Source of the DNA: Pseudooceanicola sediminis
GTDB lineage: Bacteria > Pseudomonadota > Alphaproteobacteria > Rhodobacterales > Rhodobacteraceae
Direction: 5' to 3'
Length of the DNA: 64,000 nucleotides
Assembly (NCBI RefSeq): GCF_003575965.1
Contig: NZ_QWJJ01000005.1
Span: 62,001 to 126,000, forward strand
The notes under the pieces were generated by a model that worked only from the letters and a program-made list of their open reading frames with translations, was not told the DNA's origin and made no database searches. Below, in pieces: positions 12,712 to 50,073 of the stretch (its first letter is position 1; every line of letters starts with the position of its first letter). The translations under genes were made by a program, and so were the position numbers.

Positions 12712-12795
12712 CACCGTTCAGTTACCGCTCGGATACCGTCCAGATACCGACGTTCGAATTCTGCGATATCAATGACTTGACCCGCAGATACCGAC
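12712..12795 (+). repeat. 11-bp-phased ACCG repeat element, copy A
   Basis: Four ACCG motifs start at 12713, 12724, 12735 and 12746, exactly 11 bp apart, in units like TACCGCTCGGA. A fifth, within ATACCGAC, starts at 12790, which is 44 bp (4 x 11) further on. The stretch between holds TTCGAA and GATATC. My hand alignment to copy B (26441-26524) is ungapped over 84 bp with 16 mismatches. This 315-bp intergenic gap (12646-12960) otherwise holds only the dctM terminator and the leader of the next gene. Confidence 0.75.
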
Positions 12796-12960
12796 AAAGG
12801 GCACCGACATGCCGCGACAACGGCCCGACAGCCGCGCCAGAATGTCGCGCCCAGGTTTACGGAACAGGGCCGCAGGTCACACTGTTAACCTTTGGTCGGG
12901 CCGTTCATTTGACTCTTCAATCGTCAGAGGCGCCCCTCCACATCGGCTGAGGAGACCGCG

Positions 12961-15273
12961 ATGAGCCCCCAAGACCCCCCCTCCGACCAGACAAAGCCCG
13001 ACGACGTTTCCGACCTGCCGCACGACAGCGGCCCAGCCGGCGGCTGGGGATCGCTCAAGGGCATTGCGCGCATCTTTGGCGACCAGTGGCCCAGCCCCAC
13101 CGTCACCGACACGTTGCGCCGCCTGAACAAACCCGGTGGCACCATGTGCGCCTCCTGCGCCTGGCCAAAGCCCGCGAATTACCACGCGTTCGAATTCTGC
13201 GAAAACGGTGCCAAGGCGACGATCTGGGAATCGACCTCGGCCCGCTGCACCCCCGATTTCTGGGATGATCATACCGTTTCGGCACTGCGCGACTGGGCCG
13301 ATCATGACCTCGAAAGCACCGGTCGCCTGACCGCCCCCATGCGCTACGACGCCGACACCGACCGTTATGTCAAGGTTTCGTGGGACGAGGCATTTTCCGA
13401 AATCGGCACCATTCTCAAGGGCTTGCCGCCCGAAGAGGTGGTCTTCTATTCCTCGGGTCATGCCGGGCTTGAGGCCGCCTATCTCTGGGCATTGATGGCG
13501 CGCGCCTATGGCAACAACAACCTGCCGCAATCCTCGAACATGTGTCACGAGACGACCAGCGTCGGCCTGACCAAGGTCATCGGCTCGCCCGTCGGCACGG
13601 TCATCTGGGAGGATCTGGAGCAGACCGATTGCTTCTTTTTCTTCGGCCAGAACCCCGGCACCAACAGCCCGCGTTTCCTGCATCCGCTCAAGGCCGCCAA
13701 GGACCGTGGTGCGAAAATCGTCACCTTCAATCCGGTGCGTGAACAGGGCCTGATCTCCTTCGTCGATCCGCAGGATCTGCACGCCATGACCACGGGCGAG
13801 GCGACGGTGATCTCGGACCAGTACCACCAGCTGCGCGGCGGCTCCGACATCGCCGCGATCCTCGGTATCTGCAAGGCGGTGATCGAGGCCGACGATGCCA
13901 TCGGCGGCGTCATCGACTGGGCCTTCATTAACGAACACACGCAGGGTTTCGAAGATTTTATCGACTTTGCCCGTACAACCCCGTGGCAGGCGATCTGCGC
14001 CGAATGCGGTCTGCCTGAATCCGACCTGCGCGACGCCGCCCGGGTCTATATGCAGGCCGAACGTGTCATCGGCGTCTACGGCATGGGCCTGACCCAGCAG
14101 ACCCATGGCTCCTGGAACATCGGGATGCTGACCAACCTGTTGATGTTACGTGGAAATATCGGCCGCCCCGGGGCGGGCATCTGCCCCGTGCGCGGCCATT
14201 CCAACGTGCAGGGCCAGCGCACCGTCGGCATTGCGGAAAAAACCAAGCTGATCCCGATGGACAAGCTGCGCAACCTGTTCGGCTTTGAACCTCCGCAGCA
14301 GGACGGCCTGCATATTGTCGATGCAGCCCAAGGGCTTATCGACGGCACGGTAAAGGCAATGGTCTGCCTCGGCGGCAATCTCATGCGCGCCCTGCCCGAC
14401 ACCGACCGCCTTGAACAGGCCTGGCCGCGTCAGCGTCTCAGCGTGATGATCTCGACCAAGCTCAACCGTTCACACCTCTACCCCGGCCAATCCGCCTATA
14501 TCCTGCCCTGTCTCACCCGATCCGAGGTCGACGACCAGGAAAGCGGCAACCAGTGGATCACGATCGAGGACAGCTTTTCGATGATCCACGGCTCACGCGG
14601 GCACCGCAAGCCCGCCTCGCCGGACCTGAAATCCGAACTCGCCATCACCTGCGGCATCGCCCGCGCCATCACCCCGGCGAACCCGGCGCTGACCTGGGAG
14701 GCCTGGCAGGCCGACTACGCCCGGGTGCGTGATCTGATCGAGGCAACATATCCCGATGATTTCAAGGACATGAACGCCCGCATGAACCAGCCCGGCGGCT
14801 TTTGGCGCGGCAATCCGGCGCATGAACGCGTCTGGAAAACCGACAGCGGCAAGGCCGAATTCACCGTGCCGGACAAACTGAACGCGCTGGATTTCGACGA
14901 TGCTCCGGGCCGCTTTCGCTTGCTGACCATGCGCTCCAACGACCAGTTCAACACGACGATCTATGGCTATTCCGACCGCTTTCGCGGTATCGAGGGCACC
15001 CGCGACGTGCTTCTGATGAACCCCGAGGATATGGCCGAGGCGGGCCTGTCCCACGGCGATATCGTCTCGCTTGTCGGGGACGCCGCCGATGGCCTGCCCC
15101 GCCGGCTCGACGGCCTCAGCGTGGTGCATTTCGACCTGCCGCGCGGCACCGTCGGTTCCTACTACCCCGAATGCAACGTGCTGATCCCGGTCGGATTGCA
15201 TGACCAGCTGTCAAAAACCCCCGCCTCCAAGGGGGTGCCCGTGCGCATTCAGGCCACCCGGCCAACTGCCTGA
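12961..15273 (+). CDS. FdhF/YdeP-type molybdopterin oxidoreductase
   Basis: A 770-residue cytoplasmic enzyme of the molybdopterin (bis-MGD) oxidoreductase family, YdeP branch. The N-terminus has MCASCAWP followed by EFCENG, in place of the classical four-cysteine iron-sulfur motif. Cofactor regions include SSNMCHETTS near residue 195 and FGQNPGTNSPR, and a C-terminal molydopterin dinucleotide-binding domain starts near residue 640 (LTMRSNDQFNTTIYGYSDR). No signal peptide is visible. YdeP is linked to acid resistance in Escherichia coli but the reaction is unproven. The gene stands alone, facing a convergent Rieske oxygenase. Confidence 0.88.
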   Translation: MSPQDPPSDQTKPDDVSDLPHDSGPAGGWGSLKGIARIFGDQWPSPTVTDTLRRLNKPGGTMCASCAWPKPANYHAFEFCENGAKATIWESTSARCTPDFWDDHTVSALRDWADHDLESTGRLTAPMRYDADTDRYVKVSWDEAFSEIGTILKGLPPEEVVFYSSGHAGLEAAYLWALMARAYGNNNLPQSSNMCHETTSVGLTKVIGSPVGTVIWEDLEQTDCFFFFGQNPGTNSPRFLHPLKAAKDRGAKIVTFNPVREQGLISFVDPQDLHAMTTGEATVISDQYHQLRGGSDIAAILGICKAVIEADDAIGGVIDWAFINEHTQGFEDFIDFARTTPWQAICAECGLPESDLRDAARVYMQAERVIGVYGMGLTQQTHGSWNIGMLTNLLMLRGNIGRPGAGICPVRGHSNVQGQRTVGIAEKTKLIPMDKLRNLFGFEPPQQDGLHIVDAAQGLIDGTVKAMVCLGGNLMRALPDTDRLEQAWPRQRLSVMISTKLNRSHLYPGQSAYILPCLTRSEVDDQESGNQWITIEDSFSMIHGSRGHRKPASPDLKSELAITCGIARAITPANPALTWEAWQADYARVRDLIEATYPDDFKDMNARMNQPGGFWRGNPAHERVWKTDSGKAEFTVPDKLNALDFDDAPGRFRLLTMRSNDQFNTTIYGYSDRFRGIEGTRDVLLMNPEDMAEAGLSHGDIVSLVGDAADGLPRRLDGLSVVHFDLPRGTVGSYYPECNVLIPVGLHDQLSKTPASKGVPVRIQATRPTA

Positions 15274-15286
15274 CATTCCTGCAAAA

Positions 15287-15317
15287 CTCCGCGCCACTCT
15301 CATCGGGCGGCGCGGAG
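15287..15317 (-). terminator. Rho-independent terminator between converging genes
   Basis: CTCCGCGCC (15287-15295) pairs with GGCGCGGAG (15309-15317). Read on the minus strand, the stem is followed by TTTTGCAGG, so it mainly ends the Rieske gene. It may also stop transcripts of the oxidoreductase gene. Confidence 0.75.
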
Positions 15318-15333
15318 ATTCACCGTCGCGGGG

Positions 15334-16455
15334 TCAGGGCATCCGGCTGGCAATCCAGCGGGCGAATTCGTAATTTGGCCGCTCAAGATGGCTCAGCGAA
15401 CCGGGCCGCGCCAACCGTCCCTGCATGCCGCGCCACACCCGCTCGGTACAGCCGCGATCCTCGTCATTGACGTGGTCCAGCAGCCCTTTCAACGTGGCGA
15501 AATGCACATCGGCCTGCGGATCGGCGGCAAAGTCGGGATGCAGGCCGCCGCCATAGACGATGTCGACCTCGCCCGGCGCGCTCGGCGTCAGGCAGAGGTA
15601 CCAGAAATAGCCCGGTGTCAGCGTGATCAGCAGCGACGGATAGATCGCCATCAGCCAGGTCCGATACCGATCATCGCCCTGCAACGTCGTGTTGTCCTTG
15701 TGGGCAATCGACAGCGCGATGGAATCGTCCTTCAGGATGTGGTGATAGTTGAAATTGGCCTTACCCTCGGGGCAGGTCATGCGGCGCAGATCCACCGCGC
15801 CGCCGATCGTCGCCCCATGACACACCGGCAGGTGATAGCTCTCCATGAAGTTCTCGGCCAGGATCTTCCAGTTGGTGTTCCAGTGGTGCTCCTCTCGGAA
15901 GGTTTCGACATAGCTGGACATGTCGAGATAGCCGACCAGATCGTCGACCTCGCTCAGCTGCGCCTGCGGTTCGGGCAGATCCGCGTCCAGCGTCACCATG
16001 ATCCATCCGTTCCAGTTGACACAGCGGATCGCGGGCAGGCTGTTGGCCTCCTTGCAGAACCCCGCGTTCATGTCCATCGCCGGGGCGCCGCGCAGGCTGC
16101 CGTCCAGCGAATAGGTCCACGCGTGGTAGGGGCAGGTGATCACGCGCGTGTTGCCGCGCCCCTCCAGCAGCACCGACATGCGATGGCGGCAGACGTTCGA
16201 CATGGCGCGCAGCTGCCCCTCGCGGTCGCGCAGGATCAGCACCGGTTCGCCCGCGATCTGCATCGTCAGGTAATCGCCGGGCTGCTTCAGCGCATCGGCG
16301 CGCCCGGCACACAGCCAGGATTTCGCAAACACATGGGCCGCCTCCAGTTCCTGGAACTCGGGCGATGTATAGACGGATATCGGCATCGCATGGGCGTGTT
16401 CGAAAGCGACGGCGACATTGGCGCGCAGCTCGGCGGCGGGGTCATGAATGTTCAT
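15334..16455 (-). CDS. Rieske non-heme iron oxygenase, quaternary-amine (CntA/GbcA-like) type
   Basis: A 373-residue oxygenase alpha subunit. The Rieske [2Fe-2S] site is Cys89-X-His91 and Cys108-X2-His111. The catalytic iron site reads ENFMESYHLPVCH, with His208 and His213 and a glutamate at 205. Ring-hydroxylating dioxygenases have aspartate there; glutamate is typical of CntA-like enzymes that oxidise carnitine or betaines. The start at 16455 follows AGGAGA; a longer open frame has no ribosome site. No reductase gene is adjacent, so the electron donor is elsewhere. The substrate is not certain. Confidence 0.85.
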   Translation of the reverse strand: MNIHDPAAELRANVAVAFEHAHAMPISVYTSPEFQELEAAHVFAKSWLCAGRADALKQPGDYLTMQIAGEPVLILRDREGQLRAMSNVCRHRMSVLLEGRGNTRVITCPYHAWTYSLDGSLRGAPAMDMNAGFCKEANSLPAIRCVNWNGWIMVTLDADLPEPQAQLSEVDDLVGYLDMSSYVETFREEHHWNTNWKILAENFMESYHLPVCHGATIGGAVDLRRMTCPEGKANFNYHHILKDDSIALSIAHKDNTTLQGDDRYRTWLMAIYPSLLITLTPGYFWYLCLTPSAPGEVDIVYGGGLHPDFAADPQADVHFATLKGLLDHVNDEDRGCTERVWRGMQGRLARPGSLSHLERPNYEFARWIASRMP

Positions 16456-16617
16456 CAGTTTCTCCTGATCGGCGGCCGCTTTGGGAAATGCTCCCAGCTT
16501 CGCACGCACAGGCCGCGCCTCCCTCAGGCGGCCACAGCCACAGGTTCTGCCCTTGTGCCACGAAAGCAAGCGTCATCTTGGCGCCTGCCCCACCACGCAC
16601 GAAAAAATGTCCGTCAA

Positions 16618-18348
16618 TTAGGCGGCTGTCTCGCGCGCGCTCAACGCGCAGATGGCCGCGTGCTGGCTCAGGAACACCTCGCCCGTCATCTCGTCCAGGA
16701 AATGACTGCGTTTCAGACGGTCCATCACCGGGCCCTTCACTTCGCTCAGGTGCAGCCGCACGCCCGCGTCCCGCAGCCGGGTGTTGATCGCTTCCAGTGA
16801 CTCCAGCGCCGACAGGTCGATATCGTTCACCGCGGCAAACATCAGCACCACGTCCCGCAGGCCGGGCTTTTCGGCGGCATGGCGCATCAGTTGATCTTCC
16901 AGAAAGCGGGCGTTGGGAAAATACAGGCTCTCGTCGACACGCAGCGACAGAACCTGCGGCTGCGTTTCCACATCATGGCGCAGCACGTTGCGATAATGTT
17001 CACTGCCCGGCATCCGTCCAACCACGGCGATATGGGGCCGCGACGTCTTGTACAGGTGCACCAGAACCGATGTCACGACGCCCGCCGTCACGCCAACCTC
17101 CACCCCCATCACCAGGGTCAGCAGGATGGTCACGCTGACCGCCGCGAAATCCGCCCGACTAAAGGCCCAGGCGCGCCGCAGGATCGAAAAATCGACCAGG
17201 CTCAGCACCGCGACGATGATGGTGGCGGCCAGCGTCGCCTTGGGCAGGTAATGGATCAGCGGCGTCAGGAACACCGCCGCCAGCGCCAGCCCAACCGCAG
17301 TAAACGCCCCCGCAGCCGGGGTTTCGGCCCCCGCATCATAGTTCACCACGGACCGCGAAAACCCGCCCGTCACCGGAAAGCCACCGGTCAGCGCCGCCCC
17401 GATATTGGCCGCACCCAGCCCGATAAGCTCCTGGTCGGGGTCGATCCGCTGACGCTTTTTTGCGGCCAGCGTCTGCGCCACGGAAATGCTCTCGACAAAA
17501 CCGATGATGGAGATCAGCAGCGCGGGCAGGGCCAATTCCCGCACCAGCTCGGGCCTGAGCGATGGCAGCGTCAGCGGTGGCAGACTCTGCGGTACCTCCC
17601 CCACGATGGCGACACCCTGCGCCCCCAGATCAAGGCCCCAGGTGACCAGCGTGGTCGCCACGATCGCCAGGACCGGCCCGGTCTTGGCAACCAGATCGGC
17701 CATCCGCGGCCCCAGGCCGATCCGCCACAACAGCGGCTTCAGCCCCTTGCGCACCCAGAACAGGAACACCATCGCCGACAGACCCAGGCACAGGGTCACC
17801 GGGTTGATCTCGCCCAGATGGGGCCACAACGCGGACACGATCTCGATCAGCGTATTGCCCTCGCCCTGGATCCCCAACAGATGCCGCAACTGGCTGGCCG
17901 CAATCAGGATTCCACTGGCGGTGATGAACCCCGCAATCACCGGGTGCGACAGGAAATTCGCGACAAAGCCCAATCGGAACAGACCCAGGGCCAGCAGGAT
18001 CGCCCCGGACATCAGCGCCAGCGTCACCGCCGCCGCCGCGTATCCCGCCGTCCCGCTGGCAGCGATATTGCCCACGGCCGCGGCCGTCATCAGCGACACC
18101 ACCGCCACCGGCCCCACCGCCAGCGCCCGGCTGGTGCCGAACACCGCGTACAACAGGATCGGTGCGATCGACGCATAGATACCGGCCTCGGGCGGCAGAC
18201 CCGCCAACAGCGCATAGGCCAGCGATTGCGGGATCAGCATGATCGTCACGATCAGCGCGGCCACGATATCTCCGCCAAAGGACGACCGGTCATAGCGCCG
18301 CCCCCAATCGAGAATTGGCAGGTAACGCGCAATCGAGTGCAGGTTCAT
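16618..18348 (-). CDS. SulP-family anion transporter with STAS domain
   Basis: A 576-residue membrane protein. Residues about 20-430 carry the SulP transport core (GDIVAALIVTIMLIPQSLAYALLAGLPPEAGIYAS is cut here to its key motif IPQSLAYA), and residues about 450-560 a cytoplasmic STAS domain ending in DLSALESLEAINTRL. SulP proteins move sulfate, bicarbonate or other anions. It lies 180 bp downstream of the persulfide dioxygenase gene on the same strand, in the SqrR neighbourhood, which suggests export of sulfite or sulfate from sulfide oxidation. That role is inferred. Confidence 0.88.
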   Translation of the reverse strand: MNLHSIARYLPILDWGRRYDRSSFGGDIVAALIVTIMLIPQSLAYALLAGLPPEAGIYASIAPILLYAVFGTSRALAVGPVAVVSLMTAAAVGNIAASGTAGYAAAAVTLALMSGAILLALGLFRLGFVANFLSHPVIAGFITASGILIAASQLRHLLGIQGEGNTLIEIVSALWPHLGEINPVTLCLGLSAMVFLFWVRKGLKPLLWRIGLGPRMADLVAKTGPVLAIVATTLVTWGLDLGAQGVAIVGEVPQSLPPLTLPSLRPELVRELALPALLISIIGFVESISVAQTLAAKKRQRIDPDQELIGLGAANIGAALTGGFPVTGGFSRSVVNYDAGAETPAAGAFTAVGLALAAVFLTPLIHYLPKATLAATIIVAVLSLVDFSILRRAWAFSRADFAAVSVTILLTLVMGVEVGVTAGVVTSVLVHLYKTSRPHIAVVGRMPGSEHYRNVLRHDVETQPQVLSLRVDESLYFPNARFLEDQLMRHAAEKPGLRDVVLMFAAVNDIDLSALESLEAINTRLRDAGVRLHLSEVKGPVMDRLKRSHFLDEMTGEVFLSQHAAICALSARETAA

Positions 18349-18528
18349 CTAGGCAGTCCCATTCAGGTTGATCGGGCAACAGGCAGGGTATGTGCAGAAT
18401 GGCCAGCGTCAGGCCCGGCCAGCTACAGGCCGGCCATGGGCCAGCCACGGGCCGGCGCCGCGAGGCGGGCAGCGGATATCGACAGGCCGGGGCGTGGTCC
18501 GCATGACGGCCACGCCCTGCCCCATATC

Positions 18529-19446
18529 TCACTCGAACCGGTTCACCGGCAGCTTCAGATAGGCGTTGCCATCCGCCTCGACCGGGGGCAGCCGCCCTCC
18601 GCGCAGGTTGATCTGCAGGGCCGCCAGAATGCGGGTCGGCAGCGACAGCGTGGCATCGCGTGCCTGGCGACGGGCGATCCAGTCGGTACGCTGGGTGCCG
18701 TCGCGCACATGGATGTTGCGGGCCTTGTGGTCGGCGACCGTCGCTTCCCATTCCGGCGTCTTGCGGGTCGAGGTGCCATAGTCATGACCGACGAACAGGC
18801 GCGTCTGCGACGGCAGCGACAGGATCTGCTGGATCGATTGCCACAGCGCCGAGGTATCGCCACCGGGGAAATCCGACCGCGACGTCCCGGCATCGGGCTG
18901 CATCAGGGTGTCATGCACAAACGCCGCATCGCCGCAGACATAGCTTACCGAACCCAGCGTATGCCCCGGCGACAGCATCACCCGCACCTCCAGATCTCCG
19001 ATGCGAAACACCTCCTCCGCCTCGAATAGGCGGTCGAAATCGCGATGCGGATCAAACGCGTCGGGCAGGTTATACAGATCGGCCCAGAGGCCCGCGATCT
19101 CGGGCACCCGCGCGCCAATCGCCGCAGGCGCGCCCGTGCGCGCCCTCAACTGGGCCGAGGCCATGACATGGTCGGCATGGGGGTGGGTGTCCAGCACCCA
19201 TTGCACCGTCAGCCCCTGCGCGCGCACCAGCTCCAGAACCTGGTCCATGCTCTGCGTGGAAAAGCGATAATTCTTCGGATCAAAGTTCCACACCACATCG
19301 ATCAGCGCCGCCTGGCGTGTCACCGGATCGGCACAGATATACTGGATCGAACCTGTGTCAGGCTCGTAGATCCCCCAGACATCGGGGCTGCCCGCGCCCG
19401 TCGACGCGGAATGACGGACGAGCGGGGTACGCAGTAGATCGCTCAT
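18529..19446 (-). CDS. Persulfide dioxygenase, ETHE1/Blh-like metallo-beta-lactamase-fold protein
   Basis: A 305-residue metallo-beta-lactamase-fold protein. The metal motif THPHADH gives His88, His90, Asp92 and His93; further ligands are in SPGHTLGS, FVHDTLM and VGHDYG. In ETHE1-type enzymes a single Fe(II) oxidises glutathione persulfide to sulfite. I place the start at 19446, just after a GAAAGAGG site; the upstream frame is not coding. It diverges from a SqrR/BigR-like repressor gene, the standard Blh-BigR arrangement, and is followed by a SulP gene. Confidence 0.88.
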   Translation of the reverse strand: MSDLLRTPLVRHSASTGAGSPDVWGIYEPDTGSIQYICADPVTRQAALIDVVWNFDPKNYRFSTQSMDQVLELVRAQGLTVQWVLDTHPHADHVMASAQLRARTGAPAAIGARVPEIAGLWADLYNLPDAFDPHRDFDRLFEAEEVFRIGDLEVRVMLSPGHTLGSVSYVCGDAAFVHDTLMQPDAGTSRSDFPGGDTSALWQSIQQILSLPSQTRLFVGHDYGTSTRKTPEWEATVADHKARNIHVRDGTQRTDWIARRQARDATLSLPTRILAALQINLRGGRLPPVEADGNAYLKLPVNRFE

Positions 19447-19616
19447 GCTGGGCCTCTTTCCTTCGATATGCGGGGCAACACGGCCTCGACCGCGCGCGCC
19501 CCGGGCCACCTTTTTCGGGGGCCATGGTCTCTCTTGTCTCTTGCCCGGCATGGCCGCACACACCGCCGATATTTGCGGGTGCGGGCCTTGCCTGGCTCTG
19601 TCATGCAGATATATTA

Positions 19617-19633
19617 TGAATCACTTATATTCA
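19617..19633. promoter_or_regulatory. Candidate SqrR/BigR operator
   Basis: TGAAT-CACTTAT-ATTCA is an inverted repeat inside an AT-rich island (about 19608-19650) unlike the GC-rich surroundings. It sits 11 bp before the repressor start, in the divergent gap with the persulfide dioxygenase gene. BigR boxes are AT-rich dyads of this kind. Binding is inferred. Confidence 0.55.
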
Positions 19634-19644
19634 AGAGGAAGAAT

Positions 19645-19947
19645 ATGAAAGCAGGCATGGATCTTCGCGACGGCGATATTCGCAGGGCGGCGACACTGAT
19701 GGCGATGCTTGCCTCCGAGGCGCGATTGCAGATCCTGTGCCGACTGGTCGACGCTGAACGCTCGGTCGGTGACCTGGCCCGCGCCTGCGACCTGTCGCAG
19801 CCCAGCATGTCGCAGCACCTGAGGAAACTGAAGGACGCTGAGCTGGTCGTCGCACGCCGCGACGGCCAGACCATCTGGTATTCTCTCAGCGGAGGAGAGG
19901 TCGCCGCGATCCTGAAAACCCTGCACGGCCTTTACTGCGCCCGCTGA
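19645..19947 (+). CDS. ArsR-family persulfide-sensing repressor, SqrR/BigR-like
   Basis: A 100-residue winged-helix repressor; the recognition helix is in CDLSQPSMSQHLRKL. Cys32 and Cys98 are 66 residues apart, the same spacing as the sensing pair Cys41/Cys107 of Rhodobacter SqrR, which form a polysulfide bridge on sulfide exposure. A further cysteine, Cys48, lies in the helix-turn-helix region. The start at 19645 follows AAGAGGAAG. It diverges from the persulfide dioxygenase gene and probably represses it and itself until sulfide appears. Confidence 0.9.
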   Translation: MKAGMDLRDGDIRRAATLMAMLASEARLQILCRLVDAERSVGDLARACDLSQPSMSQHLRKLKDAELVVARRDGQTIWYSLSGGEVAAILKTLHGLYCAR

Positions 19948-20026
19948 AACCGGCCCGCCCCGTCCCTGGCACGATCAGCGCGCGCCATACGCAGCCGGCG
20001 GGTCGCACCGGCGCGGCGCAAACACG

Positions 20027-25780: not shown

Positions 25781-26796
25781 GTAGCTGATGTCCTTGGATT
25801 TCATTCCTGGGGCCGCCGCGCCAAGGATCGTCACTGGCGGGGCAGAAAGGTTTCGCTTGGCTGCGTGGCATCGGGGAGGCCGCGCGTCGTGCGCCGCCAT
25901 CGGGAAACGTCCGGGGGTGAGTCACGCGTGACAGGCACTCTATGCCGGAATAAATCAACGCGAGGCAGCGGGAAGAGTTCCGATCCTTCTGCGGATTATG
26001 TTAATTTTTTGGAAACATCCGACTTGGTTGCCGCTGTCCTGTCACGCCTGCCAAGTCGCCCCTGCCAACTCGCTCTGGGCAATTCGCTCTGGGCAACTCA
26101 CTCCGCACAACGAAGCGCCAGGCCAAGCGAAACAGGGCCATGCCACGCGCCGGGCAGCATGGCATGGCATTATGGCATGGCTCTGTCTTGCCGCCATGGC
26201 GTTACGCTACCGCTGATGCGCCGTGCATAGGCAACCCTGGGCAAGCTGGCCCGCGCACATGTCGCGTCGCTCCGCCTGGCCACCTGCCCGCCCGTGACGC
26301 AACCCAGATCATCCTGACGCGATCCTAGGATCAGTCTCTCGGCCTCTCATCGCAGGCCGCGTTGCGCGAATGGTCTCCTCGTGTCTCTGGTCCCATCATC
26401 ATCGCGCCCCGCCGCCGCCCCGCGAAATTCCGGACTTTCACACCGTTCGGAAACCGTTCTGATACCGTTCAAATACCGACGTTCGAATCTAGCGATATCA
26501 GTCACTTAGCCCGCGAATACCGACACCCCCTTACCGACCCTCCGCCAACAGCCTCTGTCCCACGCCCCGACATCCCCCGGGGCCCGAGGCCGCATCGACC
26601 TCGGGCCAGCAACGGCCCTGCCCCCTCGCGCAAAACGGCGGGCCCTCCGGTCACGCATTCCAGCGCGCGTGATCACACCTGTCCCGCGGTTGCCGACACC
26701 CGTGGCCCCGATGCTGAATGGCCACGAACCCCGAACTCGATCACGGCCCGCAGGTCCGGCCTTTTGCGCCGCTGCCCGAACGAAACCGGTGTCCGA
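25781..26796. other. About 1 kb without a convincing gene
   Basis: The region between the cytochrome start and the aldehyde dehydrogenase stop. Open frames here look like noise. It holds a short direct repeat around 26068-26105 (CGCTCTGGGCAA units), a GGCATGG-rich run at 26148-26184, and copy B of the phased repeat at 26441-26524. The cytochrome operon promoter should be near 25800-26000. I cannot identify any RNA gene. Confidence 0.6.
26441..26524 (+). repeat. 11-bp-phased ACCG repeat element, copy B
   Basis: ACCG motifs start at 26442, 26453, 26464 and 26475 (11-bp steps) and again at 26519 (44 bp on). The layout, length and the inner TTCGAA and GATATC words match copy A with no gap. It lies in non-coding DNA 270 bp beyond the stop of the aldehyde dehydrogenase gene. 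Confidence 0.75.
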
Positions 26797-42084: not shown

Positions 42085-42100
42085 ATGCGAATCCAAAAGC

Positions 42101-42114: not shown

Positions 42115-42149
42115 TATCCTGAGGGCATCAGATGAAAAGGAAAAGACAA

Positions 42150-42869
42150 ATGACAAAGCAACGCATTGCCCTCGTCACAGGCGGCAACAAGGGCATCGGA
42201 CTACAGATCGCCCGACAACTGGCCGAGGCCGGTTTGCAGGTCGTCATCGGCGCGCGCGACGCCGCCCGAGGGGCCGGGGCCGTGGCCGCGCTGGCGCAAC
42301 ACGGCCTGACGGCGACGACCGTGGCGCTCGACCTCGACACCCCCGAAACACACGCAGCAGCAGCCGCCCAGCTACAGGCGGTTCACGGACGGCTCGACGT
42401 GCTGGTGAACAACGCGGGCATCTTCGATTTCGACGATGCCGTGCCCAGCAAGGCCTCGATCAAAGCGGTCCGCCGGGTGATGGAGGTGAACTTTATCGGC
42501 ACCCTGGCGGTGACCCAGGCCATGCTGCCCCTGCTCAAAGCCGCCCCCGAGGGGCGGATTGTCAATATTTCGACCTCGCTCGCCTCGCTGAACTTGAACG
42601 GCGATCCCACCTCGACCTACTATTCGCAACAGTACATCGGTTACAACGCTTCCAAGGCCGCGCTGAACATGCTGACGGTGCAACTGCACGAGGAATTGAA
42701 AGGAATCGGCATCAGGGTAAATTCGGTCAGCCCCGGCTTCGTCAAGACGGACCTGACCGGGTTCGGCGTCATGACGCCCGAGGAAGGCGCGCGGCTGCCG
42801 GTTCAATATGCGCTCGGCGGCGAAGACAGCGGCCGGTTCGTCGAGCCGGACGGCATGACCCCGTGGTGA
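42150..42869 (+). CDS. Short-chain dehydrogenase/reductase
   Basis: A 239-residue classical SDR. The nucleotide loop is TGGNKGIG near residue 11, the structural NNAG is near residue 87, and the active site is Ser (NISTSLAS) with YNASK. The PGFVKTDLTG segment is typical of carbonyl reductase-like members. The ATG at 42150 has AAAAGGA eight bases upstream; an ATG at 42132 is also possible. Controlled by the divergent TetR regulator. Substrate unknown, probably a reactive carbonyl. Confidence 0.85.
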   Translation: MTKQRIALVTGGNKGIGLQIARQLAEAGLQVVIGARDAARGAGAVAALAQHGLTATTVALDLDTPETHAAAAAQLQAVHGRLDVLVNNAGIFDFDDAVPSKASIKAVRRVMEVNFIGTLAVTQAMLPLLKAAPEGRIVNISTSLASLNLNGDPTSTYYSQQYIGYNASKAALNMLTVQLHEELKGIGIRVNSVSPGFVKTDLTGFGVMTPEEGARLPVQYALGGEDSGRFVEPDGMTPW

Positions 42870-42959
42870 GCCCCCACGACTGACAGTGCCCCAAAGCAGG
42901 CGCTGTCGACCTCGACCAGACAGTCCGTCATCTGGTCCGAGCGCCGCTACGCAAACAAA

Positions 42960-42987
42960 AGGCGCCGGAGCGTCTGCTCCAGCGCCT
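42960..42987 (-). terminator. Rho-independent terminator downstream of nrdJ
   Basis: AGGCGC-C-GGAGC pairs with GCTCC-A-GCGCCT (one internal mismatch) over GTCT. On the minus strand the stem is followed by TTTTGTTTGC. It lies 128 bp past the nrdJ stop; it may also stop the converging SDR transcript. Confidence 0.7.
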
Positions 42988-43114
42988 CTATCACCGTCCT
43001 TCAGAGAGCAGCCGAAGGGCACGAGGTGGTACGTTTCGCCCTTGACACCCCTTGCGCAGACTTATGCTTCCGTTTGCGCATTCATCTGCTTTCTCTGACT
43101 CCCCCCCCAGATCT

Positions 43115-45403
43115 TCAGCCGCACTTGCTGTGACCGCAGGAGGTGCAGGTCATGCAGCCCTCGACCATCTGGAGGGTGTACTGGCCGCAGCTCGGGCAGG
43201 CCTTGCCGCGGTTGTGGCTGGTGCCGCCCGCGTTCAGGCCGACGACCGAGGCGGTCGGATCGGCCTTCAGGCCCAGCCCCTCGCCCGCGATGAACCCCGT
43301 CTCGATCATGTGACGCTCGATGACGCCACCGATCGCCGCCAGGATCGACGGGATGTACTTGCCCTTGATCCAGGCACCACCGCGCGGATCGAACACCGCT
43401 TTCAGCTCCTCGACCACGAAGGACACATCGCCCCCCCGGCGGAACACGGCCGAGATCATCCGCGTCAGCGCGACGGTCCAGGCGTAATGCTCCATGTTCT
43501 TGGAGTTGATGAACACCTCGAAGGGACGGCGATGGCCGCTGATCACGATGTCGTTGATCGTGATATAGATCGCATGTTCGCTGTCGGGCCACTTCAGCTT
43601 GTAGGTGTTGCCCTCCAGCGCCTGCGGACGGTCCAGCGGATCGGCCATGTCCATGTAGACAACCTCGCCCCCCTCTTCGGGCATGGCGGGCTTGGCCTCT
43701 TCCTTGGTCTCGCTGACCGTCAGGACCGATCCCGTCACATCGTTCGGGCGATAGGTGGTGCAACCTTTGCAGCCCTGATCCCAGGCGGCCATGTAGACCT
43801 CCTTGAAGTCATCGAAACCGATGTCCTCGGGGCAGTTGATCGTCTTGGAAATGCTTGAATCGATCCACTTCTGCGCCGCCGCCTGCATCTTGACATGCTC
43901 CAGCGGGGCCAGCGTCTGGGCGTTGACGAAGTAATCCGGCAGGGGCGCGTCGCCCTTGAGGTCTTTCCACATCTTCACCGCGTAATCGACGACCTTCTCC
44001 TCGGTGCGCGACCCGTCCTTTTGCAGGACCTTGCGGGTGTATTCATAGGCGAACACCGGCTCGATCCCCGACGACACGTTGCCCGCGTACAGGCTGATCG
44101 TCCCGGTCGGCGCGATGCTGGTCAGCAGCGCGTTGCGAATGCCATGGGCGGCGACAGCGTCGCGCACGTCCTCGTCCATCTGCTGCATCGTGCCGGAGGC
44201 CAGGTAGGCGTCCTTGTCGAACAGCGGAAACGCACCCTTTTCCCTGGCCAGATCGACCGAGGCCAGGTAGCTGGCACGCGCGATCGCCCGCAACCAGGCT
44301 TCGGTCTGCGCCGCGGCTTCGTCGCTGCCATAGCGCAGGCCCAGCATCAGCAGGGCATCGGCCAGGCCGGTGACACCCAGACCGATCCGGCGCTTTGCCT
44401 CGGCCTCGCGGCGCTGCGCCTCCAGCGGGAAACCCGAGGCATCGACGGTGTTGTCCATCATGCGGATCGCCATGCGCACCAGGTCATCCAGCGCCTCGAT
44501 ATCCAGCGCGGCGTTTTCGGTAAACGGGGCGCTGACCAGCCGCGACAGGTTCACCGATCCCAGCAGGCAGGCGCCATAGGGCGGCAGGGGCTGTTCACCG
44601 CAGGGGTTCGTCGCGGCAATCGTCTCGCAATAGGCCAGGTTGTTGGCCTGGTTGATGCGGTCGATAAAGATCACGCCCGGCTCGGCATAATCGTAGGTCG
44701 CCTGCATGATCGTGTTCCACAGGTCGCGCGCCTGCAGGGTGTGGTACACCTTGTCGCCGAACTTCAGGTCCCACGGGCCATCGGCCTTGACCGCATCCAT
44801 GAACGGGTCGGTCACCAGCACCGACATGTTGAACATGCGCAGGCGGGCCGGGTCGCTCTTGGCGGCGATGAACTGTTCGATATCGGGGTGGTCGCAACGC
44901 ATTGTCGCCATCATCGCGCCCCGGCGCGACCCCGCGCTCATGATCGTGCGGCACATCGCGTCCCAGACATCCATGAAGCTCAGCGGGCCGCTGGCATCCG
45001 CCGCCACGCCCTTCACATCCGCGCCCTTGGGACGAATGGTGCTGAAGTCATAACCGATACCGCCGCCCTGCTGCATCGTCAGCGCGGCCTCTTTCAGCAT
45101 GTCGAAGATGCCGCCCATGCTGTCGGGCACGGTGCCCATGACAAAGCAGTTGAACAACGTCACGCGCCGCGCGGTGCCCGCCCCCGCCGTGATCCGCCCC
45201 GCAGGCAGGAATTTGAAATCCTCAAGCGCGCCATAGAATCGCTGTTCCCAAGTCTCCTTGTCCTCCTCGACGGCGGCAAGGGCGCGGGCGATGCGGCGCC
45301 AGCTGTCCTCGACGGTGCGGTCGATGGGCGCACCGTCCGCATCCTTGAAACGGTATTTCATATCCCAGACTTGTTCGGCAATCGGGGCGGCAAAGCGGGT
45401 CAT
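43115..45403 (-). CDS. nrdJ: Cobalamin-dependent (class II) ribonucleotide reductase
   Basis: A 762-residue enzyme that reduces ribonucleotides to deoxyribonucleotides using adenosylcobalamin to make the thiyl radical, independent of oxygen. Visible signatures are FNCFVMG near residue 90, NPCGEQPLPPYGACLLGS near residue 265 holding the radical cysteine region, and PTGTISLYAGNVSSGIEP. The C-terminus has a cysteine-rich tail (CPSCGQYTLQMVEGCMTC then CGHSKCG) that re-reduces the active site. I see no cobalamin riboswitch in the short upstream gap, which fits an essential housekeeping gene. Divergent from the DUF1489 gene. Confidence 0.95.
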   Translation of the reverse strand: MTRFAAPIAEQVWDMKYRFKDADGAPIDRTVEDSWRRIARALAAVEEDKETWEQRFYGALEDFKFLPAGRITAGAGTARRVTLFNCFVMGTVPDSMGGIFDMLKEAALTMQQGGGIGYDFSTIRPKGADVKGVAADASGPLSFMDVWDAMCRTIMSAGSRRGAMMATMRCDHPDIEQFIAAKSDPARLRMFNMSVLVTDPFMDAVKADGPWDLKFGDKVYHTLQARDLWNTIMQATYDYAEPGVIFIDRINQANNLAYCETIAATNPCGEQPLPPYGACLLGSVNLSRLVSAPFTENAALDIEALDDLVRMAIRMMDNTVDASGFPLEAQRREAEAKRRIGLGVTGLADALLMLGLRYGSDEAAAQTEAWLRAIARASYLASVDLAREKGAFPLFDKDAYLASGTMQQMDEDVRDAVAAHGIRNALLTSIAPTGTISLYAGNVSSGIEPVFAYEYTRKVLQKDGSRTEEKVVDYAVKMWKDLKGDAPLPDYFVNAQTLAPLEHVKMQAAAQKWIDSSISKTINCPEDIGFDDFKEVYMAAWDQGCKGCTTYRPNDVTGSVLTVSETKEEAKPAMPEEGGEVVYMDMADPLDRPQALEGNTYKLKWPDSEHAIYITINDIVISGHRRPFEVFINSKNMEHYAWTVALTRMISAVFRRGGDVSFVVEELKAVFDPRGGAWIKGKYIPSILAAIGGVIERHMIETGFIAGEGLGLKADPTASVVGLNAGGTSHNRGKACPSCGQYTLQMVEGCMTCTSCGHSKCG

Positions 45404-45542
45404 CGCAGTTCCTTTGGCAGAAGGGGCGGGTTGAGCATTCGAAGATCAGCGTTTAGTATCGTATGTGGTCACGGGTCAAGACGCAGCATACCACATTTTG
45501 CGCATCCCCGTGTACAACAATACTTTCCCTAGAGAAATGCGC

Positions 45543-45971
45543 ATGTCTCATACAAACCTCATCAAGCTCAGCGTCGGCACCGAAAGCGTCGAGGATCTTG
45601 CAGCGTGGCAGACCACCGCAATGGCGCGTACCACCGATGGCCTGCCCCGCCATGTCACCCGCATGTGGCCCAAGCGCGAAGCGGAGTTGCTTGATGGTGG
45701 CAGCATTTACTGGGTGATCAAGGGGCAAATACAGGCGCGTCAGCGGATCTTGCGCCTGGACGAGGCGGATCGGGGCGACGGCATACGCCGCTGCGCCATC
45801 GTGCTGGACCCGGACTTGATCCGCGTCGCGCCCTCGACCAAGCGCCCGTTTCAGGGCTGGCGCTATCTCAAGCCCGAGGATTCGCCTGTCGATCTGTCCG
45901 GCACCCGCGCCGACGACGACGCCCTGCCGCCCGAACTGAACGCGGCATTGGCGGAAATCGGCGTCATCTGA
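45543..45971 (+). CDS. DUF1489-family protein
   Basis: A 142-residue protein of a family found mostly in alphaproteobacteria and without known function. Recognisable blocks are NLIKLSVGTESVEDLAAWQ, TRMWPKREAELLDGGSIYWV, then RCAIVLDPDLIRVAP and PFQGWRYLKPED. No signal or membrane helix. The start is either 45543 or the ATG two codons earlier. It diverges from nrdJ. Confidence 0.85.
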   Translation: MSHTNLIKLSVGTESVEDLAAWQTTAMARTTDGLPRHVTRMWPKREAELLDGGSIYWVIKGQIQARQRILRLDEADRGDGIRRCAIVLDPDLIRVAPSTKRPFQGWRYLKPEDSPVDLSGTRADDDALPPELNAALAEIGVI

Positions 45972-46126
45972 CACGGCCACTGGCGACAACGTGCCACCGT
46001 AGCGGCTGATCCCGGCTGCACGATTGATCCGGCCGACCCTTCGCACCCACGACGCCAACCTCTATCGCCTCCCGCCCCTGCGAGCACCGCACGGTGCGTT
46101 AGGATTTACCGGATGCGGTGTTTTCG

Positions 46127-46170
46127 CACCGCTCACATGCCGTCCATGTACCGTCAGGATACCGACGTTC
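46127..46170 (+). repeat. 11-bp-phased ACCG repeat element, short copy C
   Basis: Motifs start at 46128 (ACCG), 46139 (GCCG, one base off), 46150 and 46161 (ACCG), all at 11-bp steps, ending in ATACCGACGTTC as in copies A and B. The downstream tail is not conserved. It lies in the 323-bp gap (45972-46294) between the converging DUF1489 and hisG genes, where I see nothing else. Confidence 0.65.
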
Positions 46171-46294
46171 AAAACGACCGCTTTTCCCTGTTAACCAAGG
46201 CTGATCAGCCGAGTCGCACCGCAGGCCCACCGACGCGCCGTCCGCCACCGGCAGGAACGCTTAACCACGGCGGCGGCCTGCGAAGCTGGCGGTC

Positions 46295-46990
46295 TCAGTC
46301 CAGACCCAGCCGTGCCACCAGTGCCGTCATCACCGCACGCTCCTCGTCATCCATCGCTGCCGCACGCGACCGGAACAGAGTTGCCTGGCTTTTCAGCATC
46401 AGCCCGTCGGACAGGATCTTCAGATGGTTGGCGCGCAGCGTCTCGCCGGTCGAGGTGATATCGGCCACGGCCTCCGCCGTCTCGTTCTTGACGGTGCCCT
46501 CGGTCGCGCCCTGGCTGTCGACCAGCTGGTAATCCGCGACGCCATTTTCCTTCAGGAACTCGCGCACAAGCCTATGATATTTCGTCGCAATTCGCAGACG
46601 GAACCCGTGGTGCCGCCGAAAGGCTGCTGCCGCCGCGTCCAGATCATCCAGACAATCGACATCCACCCAGGCCTGCGGCACGGCGATGATCAGGTCGGCA
46701 TGGCCAAAGCCCAGCTCGGCCATTTCCTCGACACGCTGTTCCCAGTGCCCCAGCTTTTCGCGCACCAGGTCGGTGCCGGTGACGCCCAGGTGAATGCGAC
46801 CCTCCGTCAACTCGCGCGGAATCTCCCCGGCGGACAGCAGAACCAGCTCAACCCCTTCGATACCTTCGACTTTTCCAGCGTACTCACGGTCGGACCCGGC
46901 GCGCCCCAGCACCACGCCACGGGCGCGGAACCAGTCGAACGTCTTCTCCATCAACCGCCCCTTGGACGGCACGCCCAGCTTGATGCTCAT
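46295..46990 (-). CDS. hisG: ATP phosphoribosyltransferase, short form
   Basis: A 231-residue catalytic subunit for the first step of histidine synthesis (ATP + PRPP). It is the short HisG form lacking the C-terminal regulatory domain, which therefore needs HisZ. Typical segments are LGVPSKGRLMEKT at the start, LGVTGTDLVRE and the PRPP-binding region DITSTGETLRANHLKIL. The gene overlaps hisZ by 4 bp, matching the expected HisG-HisZ complex. Confidence 0.96.
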   Translation of the reverse strand: MSIKLGVPSKGRLMEKTFDWFRARGVVLGRAGSDREYAGKVEGIEGVELVLLSAGEIPRELTEGRIHLGVTGTDLVREKLGHWEQRVEEMAELGFGHADLIIAVPQAWVDVDCLDDLDAAAAAFRRHHGFRLRIATKYHRLVREFLKENGVADYQLVDSQGATEGTVKNETAEAVADITSTGETLRANHLKILSDGLMLKSQATLFRSRAAAMDDEERAVMTALVARLGLD

Positions 46991-48096
46991 GCCCAGCCCC
47001 CCAGTTCCACGACCATGCCGGGGCGGATCACGCCGCCCACGGCGGGGATGCCTTCGGGGCGCCCCTCGGCACGGCCCAGCACCCGCGTCAGCGCATCATA
47101 GCGCCCACCGGTCGCCACGGGGGGCAGATCGGGCCGCCCCTCGACCACGAAACCAAAGACGAAGCCGTCGTAATATTCCATGTGCGTGCGCCCGAAGGCC
47201 GCCTCGAATTCCAGCGCCTGAACGTCGATCCCATGCGCTGCTATCGCGTCCATTCGCCGCGCAAGCCGTTCCACCGCCTGCAAAATCGCGGGCATGTCGA
47301 CGGCAATGTCGCGTAATTGTTCCAACGCAAAGGGCAGTGTTTCGCGCACTTTCAGGATCGCCTCGATCAGCATCACGTCGCTGTTCGGGATCGGTGGCGT
47401 CGCGGCATCGGCCCGCAATGCCTCGATCCGCGCGGCAACCTCGTCGCGGCTGCGCATGCCGATTTCAGGCCCCGCATTGCGGAACGGATCATCAGACGTC
47501 AGCAGCACCTTGCGCGCCACGGGGACCGGGTGCCGCCCGGCATAGCGTTCCAGCAGCGCCCTGAAGCGCGCGGGCCGCCAGATATGCCGCCACAGCGCGG
47601 CCTTGCGCGCCTCCGACGTCTCCAGCCCCTCGACCGCTGCCATCAGTATGCCGATGTCGCCGGTCGTCGCCTTCAGGTTCAGCGGCGCAACAGCGCTTTG
47701 CACGCGGGCGAAAACTTCGGCATCAGCCGCGGCAGGGTCCGTTCCGTCAAAGATTTCGAAACCAACCTGGAGGTATTCATTGGCGCGGGCCTCGTCTTCT
47801 TCCTGACGGCGGAACACTTCGCCCGCATAGGTATAGCGCGCCGGTTCGGCCCCTTGGGCCATGTGCATCTGCACCACCGGCACCGTGAAATCCGGGCGCA
47901 GCATCTGCTCGCCCCGCAGAATATCGGAGGTCGTATAGGCGCGGGCACGAATGTCCTCGCCGTAAAGATCCAGCAGCGCGCTGGCCGACAGCAACACGGG
48001 TGCCTCGACCGGCACGGCGCCCGCCGCTTCAAAGCCCTCGCGCAGGGCTGCCGCGCAGGCTTTCACCTGCGCCTTTTCTGGTGTCCGGTTGGCCAT
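46987..48096 (-). CDS. hisZ: ATP phosphoribosyltransferase regulatory subunit
   Basis: A 369-residue HisS-like protein without tRNA charging function; it activates short HisG and gives histidine feedback. It keeps the class II synthetase fold (motif-like RPDFTVPVVQMHMAQG and TGGRYDALTRVLG) but lacks the anticodon domain of HisS. It sits between hisS and hisG on the same strand, with three bases to hisS. Confidence 0.95.
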   Translation of the reverse strand: MANRTPEKAQVKACAAALREGFEAAGAVPVEAPVLLSASALLDLYGEDIRARAYTTSDILRGEQMLRPDFTVPVVQMHMAQGAEPARYTYAGEVFRRQEEDEARANEYLQVGFEIFDGTDPAAADAEVFARVQSAVAPLNLKATTGDIGILMAAVEGLETSEARKAALWRHIWRPARFRALLERYAGRHPVPVARKVLLTSDDPFRNAGPEIGMRSRDEVAARIEALRADAATPPIPNSDVMLIEAILKVRETLPFALEQLRDIAVDMPAILQAVERLARRMDAIAAHGIDVQALEFEAAFGRTHMEYYDGFVFGFVVEGRPDLPPVATGGRYDALTRVLGRAEGRPEGIPAVGGVIRPGMVVELGGWA

Positions 48097-48099
48097 GTC

Positions 48100-49584
48100 T
48101 CAGCCCTGCCCCGCCAGGATATCGCGGATCTTCGCGACCAGCTGATCGCGCGGCACCTCGTACTGCGAGGGGCGTTCCTTCCATTCCTCCAGCGTTGCGT
48201 TTTCCGCGATTTTTGCACCTAGAATCAAGTCCTTGACCTGCACGACGCCACGCGCACGCTCATCTCCTCCCGCGATCACCGCCGCCGGAGATCCTCGTTT
48301 ATCCGCATATTTCAGCTGGTTACCGAAATTCTTCGGGTTGCCCAGATAAACCTCGGCCCGGATACCTGCCTGGCGCAGTTCGGCCACGATCGACTGATAG
48401 TCCGCCATGTGCTCGCGGTCCATGACGGTGACGACGACGGGCCCCTGCGCGTCCGAAGTGATGCGGCCCTTGGCATGCAGCGCGGCAAGCAGACGATCGA
48501 CGCCGATGGACACCCCGGTTGCGGGCACGGATTGCCCCGTGAACCGCTTGACCAGATCGTCGTAGCGGCCACCGCCTGCGACTGACCCGAACTGCCGCTT
48601 GCGGCCTTTCTCGTCAAGCATTTCGAAGGTCAGTTCAGCTTCGAAAACCGGCCCCGTATAGTAGCCCAGACCACGCACGACCGACGGATCAATCTCGATC
48701 CGGTCGGTGCCGTAGCCTTGGGCGGCCAGCAGCGCGGCCATCTCGGCCAGCTCGGCCACACCCTCCGCTCCGACCTCAGAGGTGCCGATGGCAGACCGCA
48801 GATTATCCAGCGTTTCAGAGGCATCAGCACCCTTGGAGGTCAGGAAGGCCAGCACGGGTTCGGCCTGTTCCGGGCTCAGGCCGACACCATCGATATACGC
48901 ACCGGAGGCATCGAGCCGACCCTTGCCCAGCAGCGCGCGCACGCCGTTTTCACCCACCTTGTCGAACTTGTCGATGGTGCGCAGCACGGCGTCGCGCTGA
49001 CTGTCATCGGTCAGGCCCATGGCCTCCAACACGCCGTTCAGCACCTTGCGGTTGTTGACCCGGATCAGGTAGTCACCACGCGGGATACCGACCTCTTCGA
49101 GACAATCCGAGAGCATCGCGCAAATCTCGGAATCAGCGGCGACGGAGGGCGCGCCGACGGTATCGGCATCACATTGATAAAACTGGCGGAATCGACCCGG
49201 CCCCGGCTTCTCGTTGCGCCAGACCGGCCCCATCGCGTAGCGGCGATAGGGGGTGGGCAGATCGTTGCGGTGCTGGGCGTAGACACGGGCAAGCGGGGCC
49301 GTCAGGTCGTAGCGCAGGGCGAGCCAGTCGCCGTTGCCCTCTTCCTCGCCCTCTTGCCAGGCGAAGACACCTTCGTTCGGGCGATCGACGTCGGGCAGGA
49401 ATTTCCCAAGTGCTTCAACGGTTTCCACGGCGGAGCTTTCCAGCGCGTCAAAGCCGTAGCGATGGTAGACGCCGGCAATCGTGCGCAGCATGTCGCTGCG
49501 TTCCGTTACCTGCGTGCCGAAGTAATCCCGGAAGCCCTTGGGGGTCTCCGCCTTCGGACGCGGTGCTTTTTTCACCTTGGCCAT
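48100..49584 (-). CDS. hisS: Histidyl-tRNA synthetase
   Basis: A 494-residue class II synthetase that charges tRNA-His. Motif 2 is [22 protein letters not shown] (core [10 protein letters not shown]), the histidine motif [12 protein letters not shown], and motif 3 [15 protein letters not shown]. The C-terminal anticodon domain covers the last 100 residues. I use the ATG at 49584 (AAGGATCAAG site); a frame extending to 49779 is not supported. First gene of hisS-hisZ-hisG. Confidence 0.95.
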
Positions 49585-49793
49585 CGCTTGATCCTTGCCC
49601 TTTGGAGTGCGCCCGGGGCATAGCCCATGGGGCCGAAGGGGGCAAGCGTGGCTGAGAGCGCCCTGCCCCTTGCGAACCACCCCCCTCGGGCGCCGCGTCG
49701 CCGGGGCAGCACAAAGGCTGGTCGACGGCGGGCCCGCATATGCTAGATGTGCCCCGTTGCGCCGCTGCGGCGCCACCAACCGGAGGACGGACC

Positions 49794-49988
49794 ATGCAGG
49801 AAATCGAAGAAAAGCTGGCGCATCTGATCCGTGCGGTCGACGATCTGTCCGATACCGTCGCGCGCCAGCAGGGCGAGATCGAGGTGCTGACGCGCCGGGT
49901 GCAGATGCTGATGCAGCGCGAAGCGACGCGTGAGGCCGAGGGCGGTGCGGCGATTTTTACCGGGTCGGAAAAGCCACCGCATTACTGA
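49794..49988 (+). CDS. slyX: SlyX-like coiled-coil protein
   Basis: A 64-residue protein with one long coiled coil ([20 protein letters not shown] then [13 protein letters not shown]) and a C-terminal PPHY, the SlyX family end. Function unknown despite the name. A CGGAGGAC ribosome site precedes the ATG. Divergent from hisS. Confidence 0.85.
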
Positions 49989-50023
49989 CCGCGCCGAACC
50001 CCGCCTAAGCCTTTGAAAACGCC

Positions 50024-50073
50024 AGATTCCCACGTCGGTATCTGAACGGTATCCGAGCGGTATCTGAACGGTT
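50024..50073 (-). repeat. 11-bp-phased ACCG repeat element, short copy D
   Basis: On the minus strand four ACCG motifs (seen as CGGT at 50036, 50047, 50058 and 50069) are 11 bp apart, in units such as ATACCGTTCAG, followed by ACGTGGGAATCT. It lies in the 313-bp gap (49989-50301) between the converging slyX and dnaE genes. That gap also has a GACAGC-rich run at 50275-50300 and no gene that I can support. Confidence 0.7.

Follow-up and report, generated by a model that had tools for sequence, protein, structure and literature searches.

Dispersed arrays of 11-bp-phased ACCG motifs in Pseudooceanicola sediminis and other Rhodobacterales: a candidate genome-marking system

Four phased arrays in the window

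The window analysed here, a stretch of 64,000 nucleotides of Pseudooceanicola sediminis DNA (positions 62,001 to 126,000 of contig NZ_QWJJ01000005.1), carries four short arrays, each of which, by direct reading, holds four ACCG-type motifs at exact 11-bp spacing and ends in ATACCGACG. The genome of the window, 4.44 Mb, is called G000 below; its relatives carry numbers of the same form, and individual arrays are given as loci (L). Here, we show that such arrays recur in G000 and in a patchy set of relatives, that they keep their helical phase, are evenly spaced and hold their position and strand, and that their letters form dialects. The arrays of the window and the features beside them are listed in window positions.

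12713-12752, plus strand: site 1 array, four 11-bp units (ACCG-N7), closing ATACCGACG
12767-12779, plus strand: site 1 tail, exact match to WATCAANNNNTTR, the consensus of integration host factor (IHF), at +54 from the array start
26442-26481, plus strand: site 2 array, four 11-bp units
26496-26508, plus strand: site 2 tail, at +54 a word that differs from the IHF consensus by one mismatch
46085-46101, plus strand: site 3, upstream word CACCGCACGGTGCGTTA of a composite (class A) element
46128-46167, plus strand: site 3 array, four 11-bp units, second motif GCCG; class A
46191-46215, plus strand: site 3, downstream part of class A, with TTAACC, a spacer and GAGTC (a GANTC word)
50072-50033, minus strand: site 4 array, four 11-bp units
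50006-50018, minus strand: site 4 tail, at +54 a word one mismatch away from the IHF consensus

Gene context in the window comes from our own simple gene finder and Pfam names. Site 1 lies between dctM and a molybdopterin oxidoreductase gene, and site 2 between the end of an aldehyde dehydrogenase gene and the start of a cytochrome c gene, both in tandem. Site 3 separates the convergent ends of a DUF1489 gene and hisG, and site 4 the end of dnaE from the start of a hisS-like gene, again in tandem and with a doubtful 65-aa call between them. The initial annotation of this DNA had reported four sites with four motifs each at exact 11-bp spacing and GCCG in the third copy, all of which we recovered. 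It had called them gene-end intergenic; all four do lie at gene ends, and three of the four gaps contain a gene start as well. A three-motif pattern with at most one mismatch has nine matches in the window against 0.47 expected, and none of 100 shuffles reached nine. Eight of the nine are the four sites. The ninth, a one-mismatch match at 17361-17386, falls outside them within a predicted gene and is probably due to chance.

Folding z-scores of sites 1 to 4 were -1.38, 1.24, -0.35 and 0.30, so that none has a significant hairpin, in line with what had been claimed for them, and an Rfam scan of the window gave no match. The palindromic hairpin unit that defines bacterial interspersed mosaic elements (BIME) and repetitive extragenic palindromes (REP) is thus lacking. 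The arrays are non-palindromic direct repeats at gene ends, in keeping with their separation from REP elements in the initial annotation.

Number, phase and placement of the arrays in the genome

A 28-letter pattern, three copies of ACCGNNCNGNT followed by ACCGACG, was searched across G000. It has 16 exact matches, and 93 (56 forward, 37 reverse) when up to three mismatches are allowed, whereas the reversed control has none at either setting, which places the copy number above chance. The 93 matches count one site in two registers and therefore correspond to 92 distinct places, 90 of which we read in sequence. Four units are usual (86 of 91 arrays in G000 and 69 of 70 in G218), with four to six found elsewhere. 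The phase is kept in the other copies, as the array words set at a 10-bp period match in none of the 23 genomes of the genus. The observation made in the window therefore stands and is larger than was reported, while the interpretation that came with it is supported in part, as discussed below. That first description lacked the regular intervals, the constancy of place and strand, the dialects with their second core word, the patchiness among relatives, the arrays inside genes and the composite element.

Placement was classified for 302 arrays (91 in G000, 70 in G218, 40 in G202, 27 in G215, 20 in G201 and 54 in named genomes), with genes called by our own finder, unchecked against annotation. 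Convergent gaps hold 100 arrays, tandem gaps 139 and divergent gaps 32; 17 arrays lie inside a predicted gene and 14 at a contig edge. Control gaps of at least 100 bp at the same loci comprise 26 convergent, 141 tandem and 103 divergent ones. Arrays avoid divergent gaps (32 against 239 other array gaps, compared with 103 against 167 in the controls; P 7.5e-13) and favour convergent ones (P 2.8e-14). Within tandem gaps 77 arrays read with transcription and 62 against it (P 0.23), showing no preference of direction.

Distribution among relatives

Relatives were searched with the pattern ACCG N5 ATACCG N5 ATACCG N5 ATACCGAC at up to three mismatches, the counts including register repeats. Among the 23 genus genomes, five have 29-138 matches (G218 138, G000 129, G215 122, G202 110, G201 29), two have one or two (G213 2, G192 1) and 16 have none; the reversed pattern matches in none of the 23. 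The same pattern matches in 24 of 295 genomes drawn from the family, eight of them with at least 20 matches (G303 161, G000 129, G263 81, G290 42, G238 34, G282 32, G151 31, G119 22). A stricter pattern found 58 stretches in a collection of named genomes, four of them elsewhere and 54 in records titled as Rhodobacterales, namely Roseovarius, Salinihabitans, Sulfitobacter, Thiosulfatihalobacter, Shimia, Pseudooceanicola, Roseobacter and other Rhodobacteraceae or Paracoccaceae (the order was verified for five of these names). Four ATAC-N7 units with one mismatch allowed match in 25 of 385 genomes of the class, 15 times in G000, and the other places listed look like local or chance repeats; this draw included five family genomes only, and arrays of other words would escape it. 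G420 (family f106) has at C7:250425-250538 a long local tandem array built from an 11-bp ATACTAATAGA unit, which differs from the dispersed arrays.

When 19 of the 23 genus genomes are placed on a DnaJ tree (two of the four left out are without a match and two were missed by the script), the array-bearing genomes are scattered. G215 is sister to the array-free G199, G201 to G216 and G212, and G202 groups with G192, G210 and G203. A de novo scan of 400 kb of the array-free G199, G204, G206 and G216 gave no excess of 11-bp periodicity over other periods, with a detector that at its threshold recovers 87 of 91 known arrays (a stricter earlier scan was insensitive and caught one of the four window sites). 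An array written in some other word was therefore rejected for these relatives within the 400 kb scanned. Where an array is present, the dnaJ-radC gap is longer, gap length being the only property compared.

That the arrays mark chromosomes only was considered and rejected as a strict rule, as they occur on contigs with RepC (C8 and C46 of G202, C74 and C25 of G215, C5 of G201). Other RepC contigs carry none among the matches listed (C31, C9, C14 and C10 of G202, C22 and C18 of G000, C15 and C17 of G201). In viral contigs the four-unit ATACCG pattern found five stretches, and those that were read are unrelated-looking tandem repeats of 38-53% GC. A blastn comparison of the arrays with plasmid and phage records gave no match, from which nothing is concluded because the low-complexity filter may mask the query.

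Dialects and conserved positions

The reversed control of the family draw gave zero in all 24 matching genomes, yet it matched in 12 others, with 85 matches in G067 and 43 in G145. A direct search for GCCATA-N5 arrays found 106 in G067, 50 in G145, 22 in G135 and 8 in G232. In the first three, the unit is CCATACGnnnn, a second dialect that has the 11-bp period and the letters ATAC in common with the ATACCG dialect. G232 was left out because its matches differ: at every fourth locus from L363 to L391 they resemble a GCAGCC-type repeat.

Within the genus the letters also follow the genome. The consensus words after ACCG are TTCAG/CTCGG/TTCAG in G000 and TTCAG/TTCAG/ACGCA in G218; G202 and G201 have ACG words, as does G215, whose fourth unit is ATACAG. 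A minor subset in G000 (L008, L067, L076, L083, L085) has CCCAG or CCCGG words and less typical tails. In 45 one-to-one pairs of G000 and G218 arrays, the excess likeness over random pairs is 0.005 for unit 2 and -0.005 for unit 3, while that of the lead and tail flanks is 0.08-0.21; for orthologous arrays overall it is 0.042 (z 1.8). Such concerted wording could come from selection toward a changing optimum or from overwriting. The units of G000 show little linkage to one another and those of G218 a moderate amount, with more of it between units 2 and 3. For G000 at least, this counts against whole elements having been copied recently.

Although the letters change, the places are kept. Flanks were compared, with the array masked, among five genus genomes (91, 70 or 30, 40, 27 and 20 loci). 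This gave 55 pairs of loci in the same gap and on the same strand, 5 on opposite strands and 17 in other gaps, the pairs being partly non-independent. The sister genomes G000 and G218, with flanks 85% alike, have 46 same-strand pairs among their 91 and 70 loci, and their three opposite-strand pairs all trace to one locus. Site 1 of the window shares its gap and strand with L160 of G218, and site 3 with L180 of G215; the hisG and hisZ-like neighbours of site 3 recur in both G215 and G218. Arrays stand directly before radC in G000, G218, G202, an uncultured Roseovarius and Thiosulfatihalobacter. They also lie about 0.4 kb before dnaN in Pseudooceanicola (L130), G215 (L165) and G218 (L321), the first two with six units.

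Positions are shared across dialects too. For seven of 22 CCATACG loci, another genus has an ATACCG array in the same gap and on the same strand; among the remaining cross-dialect cases, one has only a distant gene in common, two are flipped and one is of another kind. The start of scpB is one such place, with an array at or before it in G000, G218 and G067; others adjoin a RegA-like response regulator gene or precede an lpdA-like gene. Sharing extends into coding sequence. In valS, between KLWNAARFAEMN and NKWIIGE, Shimia aestuarii has an ATACCG array (L115) and G145 a CCATACG array (L370), and both read in frame as a variable insert. The mutL linker holds an in-frame array in G000, G215 and G218 (L005, L292, L316), and a further in-frame array (L197) lies near the end of a mutY-like gene, both of them repair genes. 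Taken with the scattered tree, the shared positions suggest ancestral presence followed by repeated loss, which is the simplest reading; the same gaps may instead have been targeted repeatedly.

Spacing along the genome

In the four genomes tested, the arrays are more evenly spaced than random. Gaps below 8 kb number 5 against 13.7 expected among 93 sites of G000 (P 0.002) and 5 against 16.4 among 99 sites of G218, where the coefficient of variation (CV) is 0.80 against 0.99 (P 0.011). G202 has 2 gaps below 15 kb against 17.6 expected and a CV of 0.58 against 0.94, a value as low being reached in none of 5000 simulations; these figures use 76 of 100 listed matches (110 counted), with 21 register repeats and three matches on contigs of unknown length removed. 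In G145, of the CCATACG dialect, 40 sites leave 3 gaps below 30 kb against 11.3 (P 0.0004, contig ends approximated). Median gaps are 29 kb in G000, 36 kb in G202 and 63 kb in G145. The G218 sites are those of its 138 matches that lie on a one-contig chromosome with origin and terminus not located, and strand polarity by replichore is borderline there (35 of 99, permutation P 0.05).

Array tails and the composite element

Beyond the array, A/T-rich steps lie near +44, +55 and +65. In G000 the IHF consensus at +54 is exact in 19 of 91 arrays and within one mismatch in 50 of 91. G218 has no exact copy and two of 70 within one mismatch, and in G215, G202 and G201 the word on the array strand at +54 is absent from the commonest positions. 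The word, strong in G000 alone, is retained as a lineage-specific feature, and a general dependence on IHF seems improbable.

Class A arrays, site 3 included, are flanked on either side by TTAAC words, with a GANTC word (a CcrM-type site) downstream. All 14 TTAACC-spacer-CGANTCG composites in the loci examined adjoin an array, as does the composite of the window, whose second motif is GCCG. Class A composites occur in several genera (for example L001, L073, L084, L119, L140 and window 46085-46215).

Discussion

Phase, blindness to reading direction, placement and concerted wording together point to a factor that acts on DNA with one contact per turn, and the regular intervals of tens of kilobases point to a task at the scale of the chromosome. 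We therefore favour, tentatively, the reading that the arrays are DNA-level docking sites of a putative co-evolving and dispensable factor lying on one face of the helix, probably for chromosome-scale organisation and not as switches of individual genes. We infer that such a factor exists, binds and wraps the DNA and has an organising role. The initial annotation had proposed a cooperatively binding protein or a bent-DNA signal; the strict 11-bp phase fits a factor on one helix face, and binding, cooperative or otherwise, is likewise deduced. According to this docking-site reading, the four window sites would belong to a genome-wide set of about 100 or more short iteron arrays, and a sequence-specific factor would touch a single helix face at every turn along a length of four to six turns. 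The phased A/T steps, which often run on into the tail, may let protomers line up on bent or wrapped DNA. The sites would act as DNA, whatever their reading direction, at about one mark every 30-60 kb, and in the gaps between genes they would most likely serve for anchoring, for setting domains or for handling supercoils. If the factor is dispensable and was lost in some relatives, their arrays would vanish; if its preferred letters drift, all sites of a genome would follow, giving rise to dialects.

Several observations weigh against this reading. The factor and its binding are putative. The spacing null was random placement rather than random gene gaps, and the site lists are threshold-limited. 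The spacing CV of G000 alone is not significant (P 0.17); some of its arrays are 2-4 kb apart, and sites 3 and 4 of the window only 3.9 kb. We noticed no extended stretch of G218 poor in arrays (the largest gap among 99 sites is 215 kb), in contrast to Noc- and SlmA-type systems. Units 1 and 4 retain some memory of their site (excess 0.154 and 0.129 in the 45 pairs), the IHF-like tail is confined to G000, and plasmid-type contigs are mixed.

The main alternative, possible if doubtful, is that the arrays are labels for DNA transfer, read either at uptake, as are the DNA uptake sequence (DUS) of Neisseria and the uptake signal sequence (USS) of Haemophilus, or at packaging, as is a phage pac site, to which a small-terminase ring binds. 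Their spread, even spacing and dialects would in that case be driven by recombination and biased transfer. Phage pac and cos sites combine iterated words with an IHF site, which the arrays of G000 recall, and placement regardless of orientation and inside genes fits as well. The strongest argument is the parallel, with an ATAC core, dialects and array-free relatives, to DUS, for which PMC3630211 describes clade dialects with a common CTG core and five Neisseriaceae genomes without an obvious DUS. PMC1939737 cites reports that uptake sequences are evenly spaced, which was proposed to indicate a function in replication, repair or compaction, and itself casts doubt on this evenness. Against a transfer label, a genome has about 100-160 matches rather than the thousands of DUS given in PMC3630211, and with so few arrays most short DNA fragments would go unlabelled. 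The stretches read in viral contigs, moreover, look unrelated.

The remaining alternatives are less probable. That the arrays are gyrase sites or supercoil sinks similar to BIME-2, in which phased gene-end DNA wraps gyrase where positive supercoils accumulate, is unlikely. Arrays do lie at convergent gene ends with phased A/T steps extending past them, and the E. coli gyrase motif, according to PMC6379681, has 10.75-bp periodic flanks, with gyrase drawn downstream of transcribed genes and to BIME-2. Specific letters and dialects, however, are unexpected of a degenerate gyrase motif. Sixteen of 23 genus genomes also lack the arrays, though gyrase is to our knowledge universal. We consider it slightly more improbable still that they are short mobile elements or solo transposon ends, spaced by target immunity and preferring gene ends. 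Such an origin would suit copies that are dispersed, evenly spaced, patchy among genomes, sometimes intragenic and kept away from promoters, and also the longer dnaJ-radC gap. Positions and strands common to species and genera speak against it, as do letters that follow the genome dialect at shared sites and the little unit linkage in G000, which leaves no clear copy families there (units 2-3 of G218 are more linked). Very improbable, finally, are operator arrays for a transcription regulator of the ordinary kind or, at the RNA level, a terminator or a signal in the 3' untranslated region. Direct repeats of 11 bp are the targets of OmpR/PhoB-type regulators, and the G000 unit resembles the GTTC-N7-GTTC box of alphaproteobacterial LexA. 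LexA boxes were rejected because the CCATACG and ACCGACG dialects have no GTTC; divergent promoter gaps are avoided and transcription direction is ignored in tandem gaps, which suits neither an operator nor an RNA signal. An RNA element was rejected for that lack of direction and for the absence of an Rfam match in the window and of a significant fold.

If docking sites they are, a group of widely distributed bacteria carries regular genome-wide marks that escape every annotation tool. Among the many sister species some bear the marks and others lack them, and the same sites occur in two or more dialects; this natural experiment would allow the reader of the code to be found by co-occurrence and tested by word swapping. 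The system would bear on the division of bacterial chromosomes into domains tens of kilobases long or on kin-restricted exchange of DNA, and on how a hundred binding sites change together yet keep their function.

Comparison with known systems

A literature search at title level yielded no described family matching these 11-bp arrays, in agreement with the initial annotation, which knew of none. We would, with somewhat less than even confidence, regard them as a genome-marking system new to description, in which a dispensable DNA-binding factor would read even, helically phased iteron arrays at about 100 sites that are worded in concert and keep place and strand across genera, even in coding sequence. 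They would then serve the whole chromosome as an address or scaffold code, evolving in the manner of uptake-sequence dialects.

DUS and USS are words of 10-12 letters. Like them, the arrays are dispersed and over-represented, have clade dialects (ATACCG and CCATACG) with a short common core (ATAC), are missing in some relatives and show no direction preference. They differ in being four to six phased 11-bp units rather than single words and in numbering about 100-160 copies instead of thousands; the highest count, 161 matches per genome at three mismatches with register repeats included, falls short of the hundreds to thousands usual for uptake sequences. Enterobacterial BIME and REP elements, which include RIB and RIP forms with IHF sites, are similarly dispersed in gene-end intergenic DNA at about 100 or more copies, and G000 has an IHF-like word; the arrays are distinguished by direct repeats, the lack of a significant fold, conserved positions with dialects, and even spacing. 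Strong gyrase sites are likewise helically phased sequence downstream of genes (PMC6379681), while the arrays have specific words and are patchy between sister species.

Dispersed chromosomal sites that act at the DNA level through one DNA-binding protein, putative here, are also found with Noc and its NBS, SlmA and its SBS, and MatP and matS. Those are single short sites with regional bias, whereas the arrays are tandem iterons with no obvious empty arc in G218. Plasmid and phage iterons, such as the 11-bp repeats of ParR/parC and the pac and cos sites, share short direct repeats once per helical turn and sometimes an IHF site, but they form one site per replicon, whereas the arrays number about 100 over the genome.

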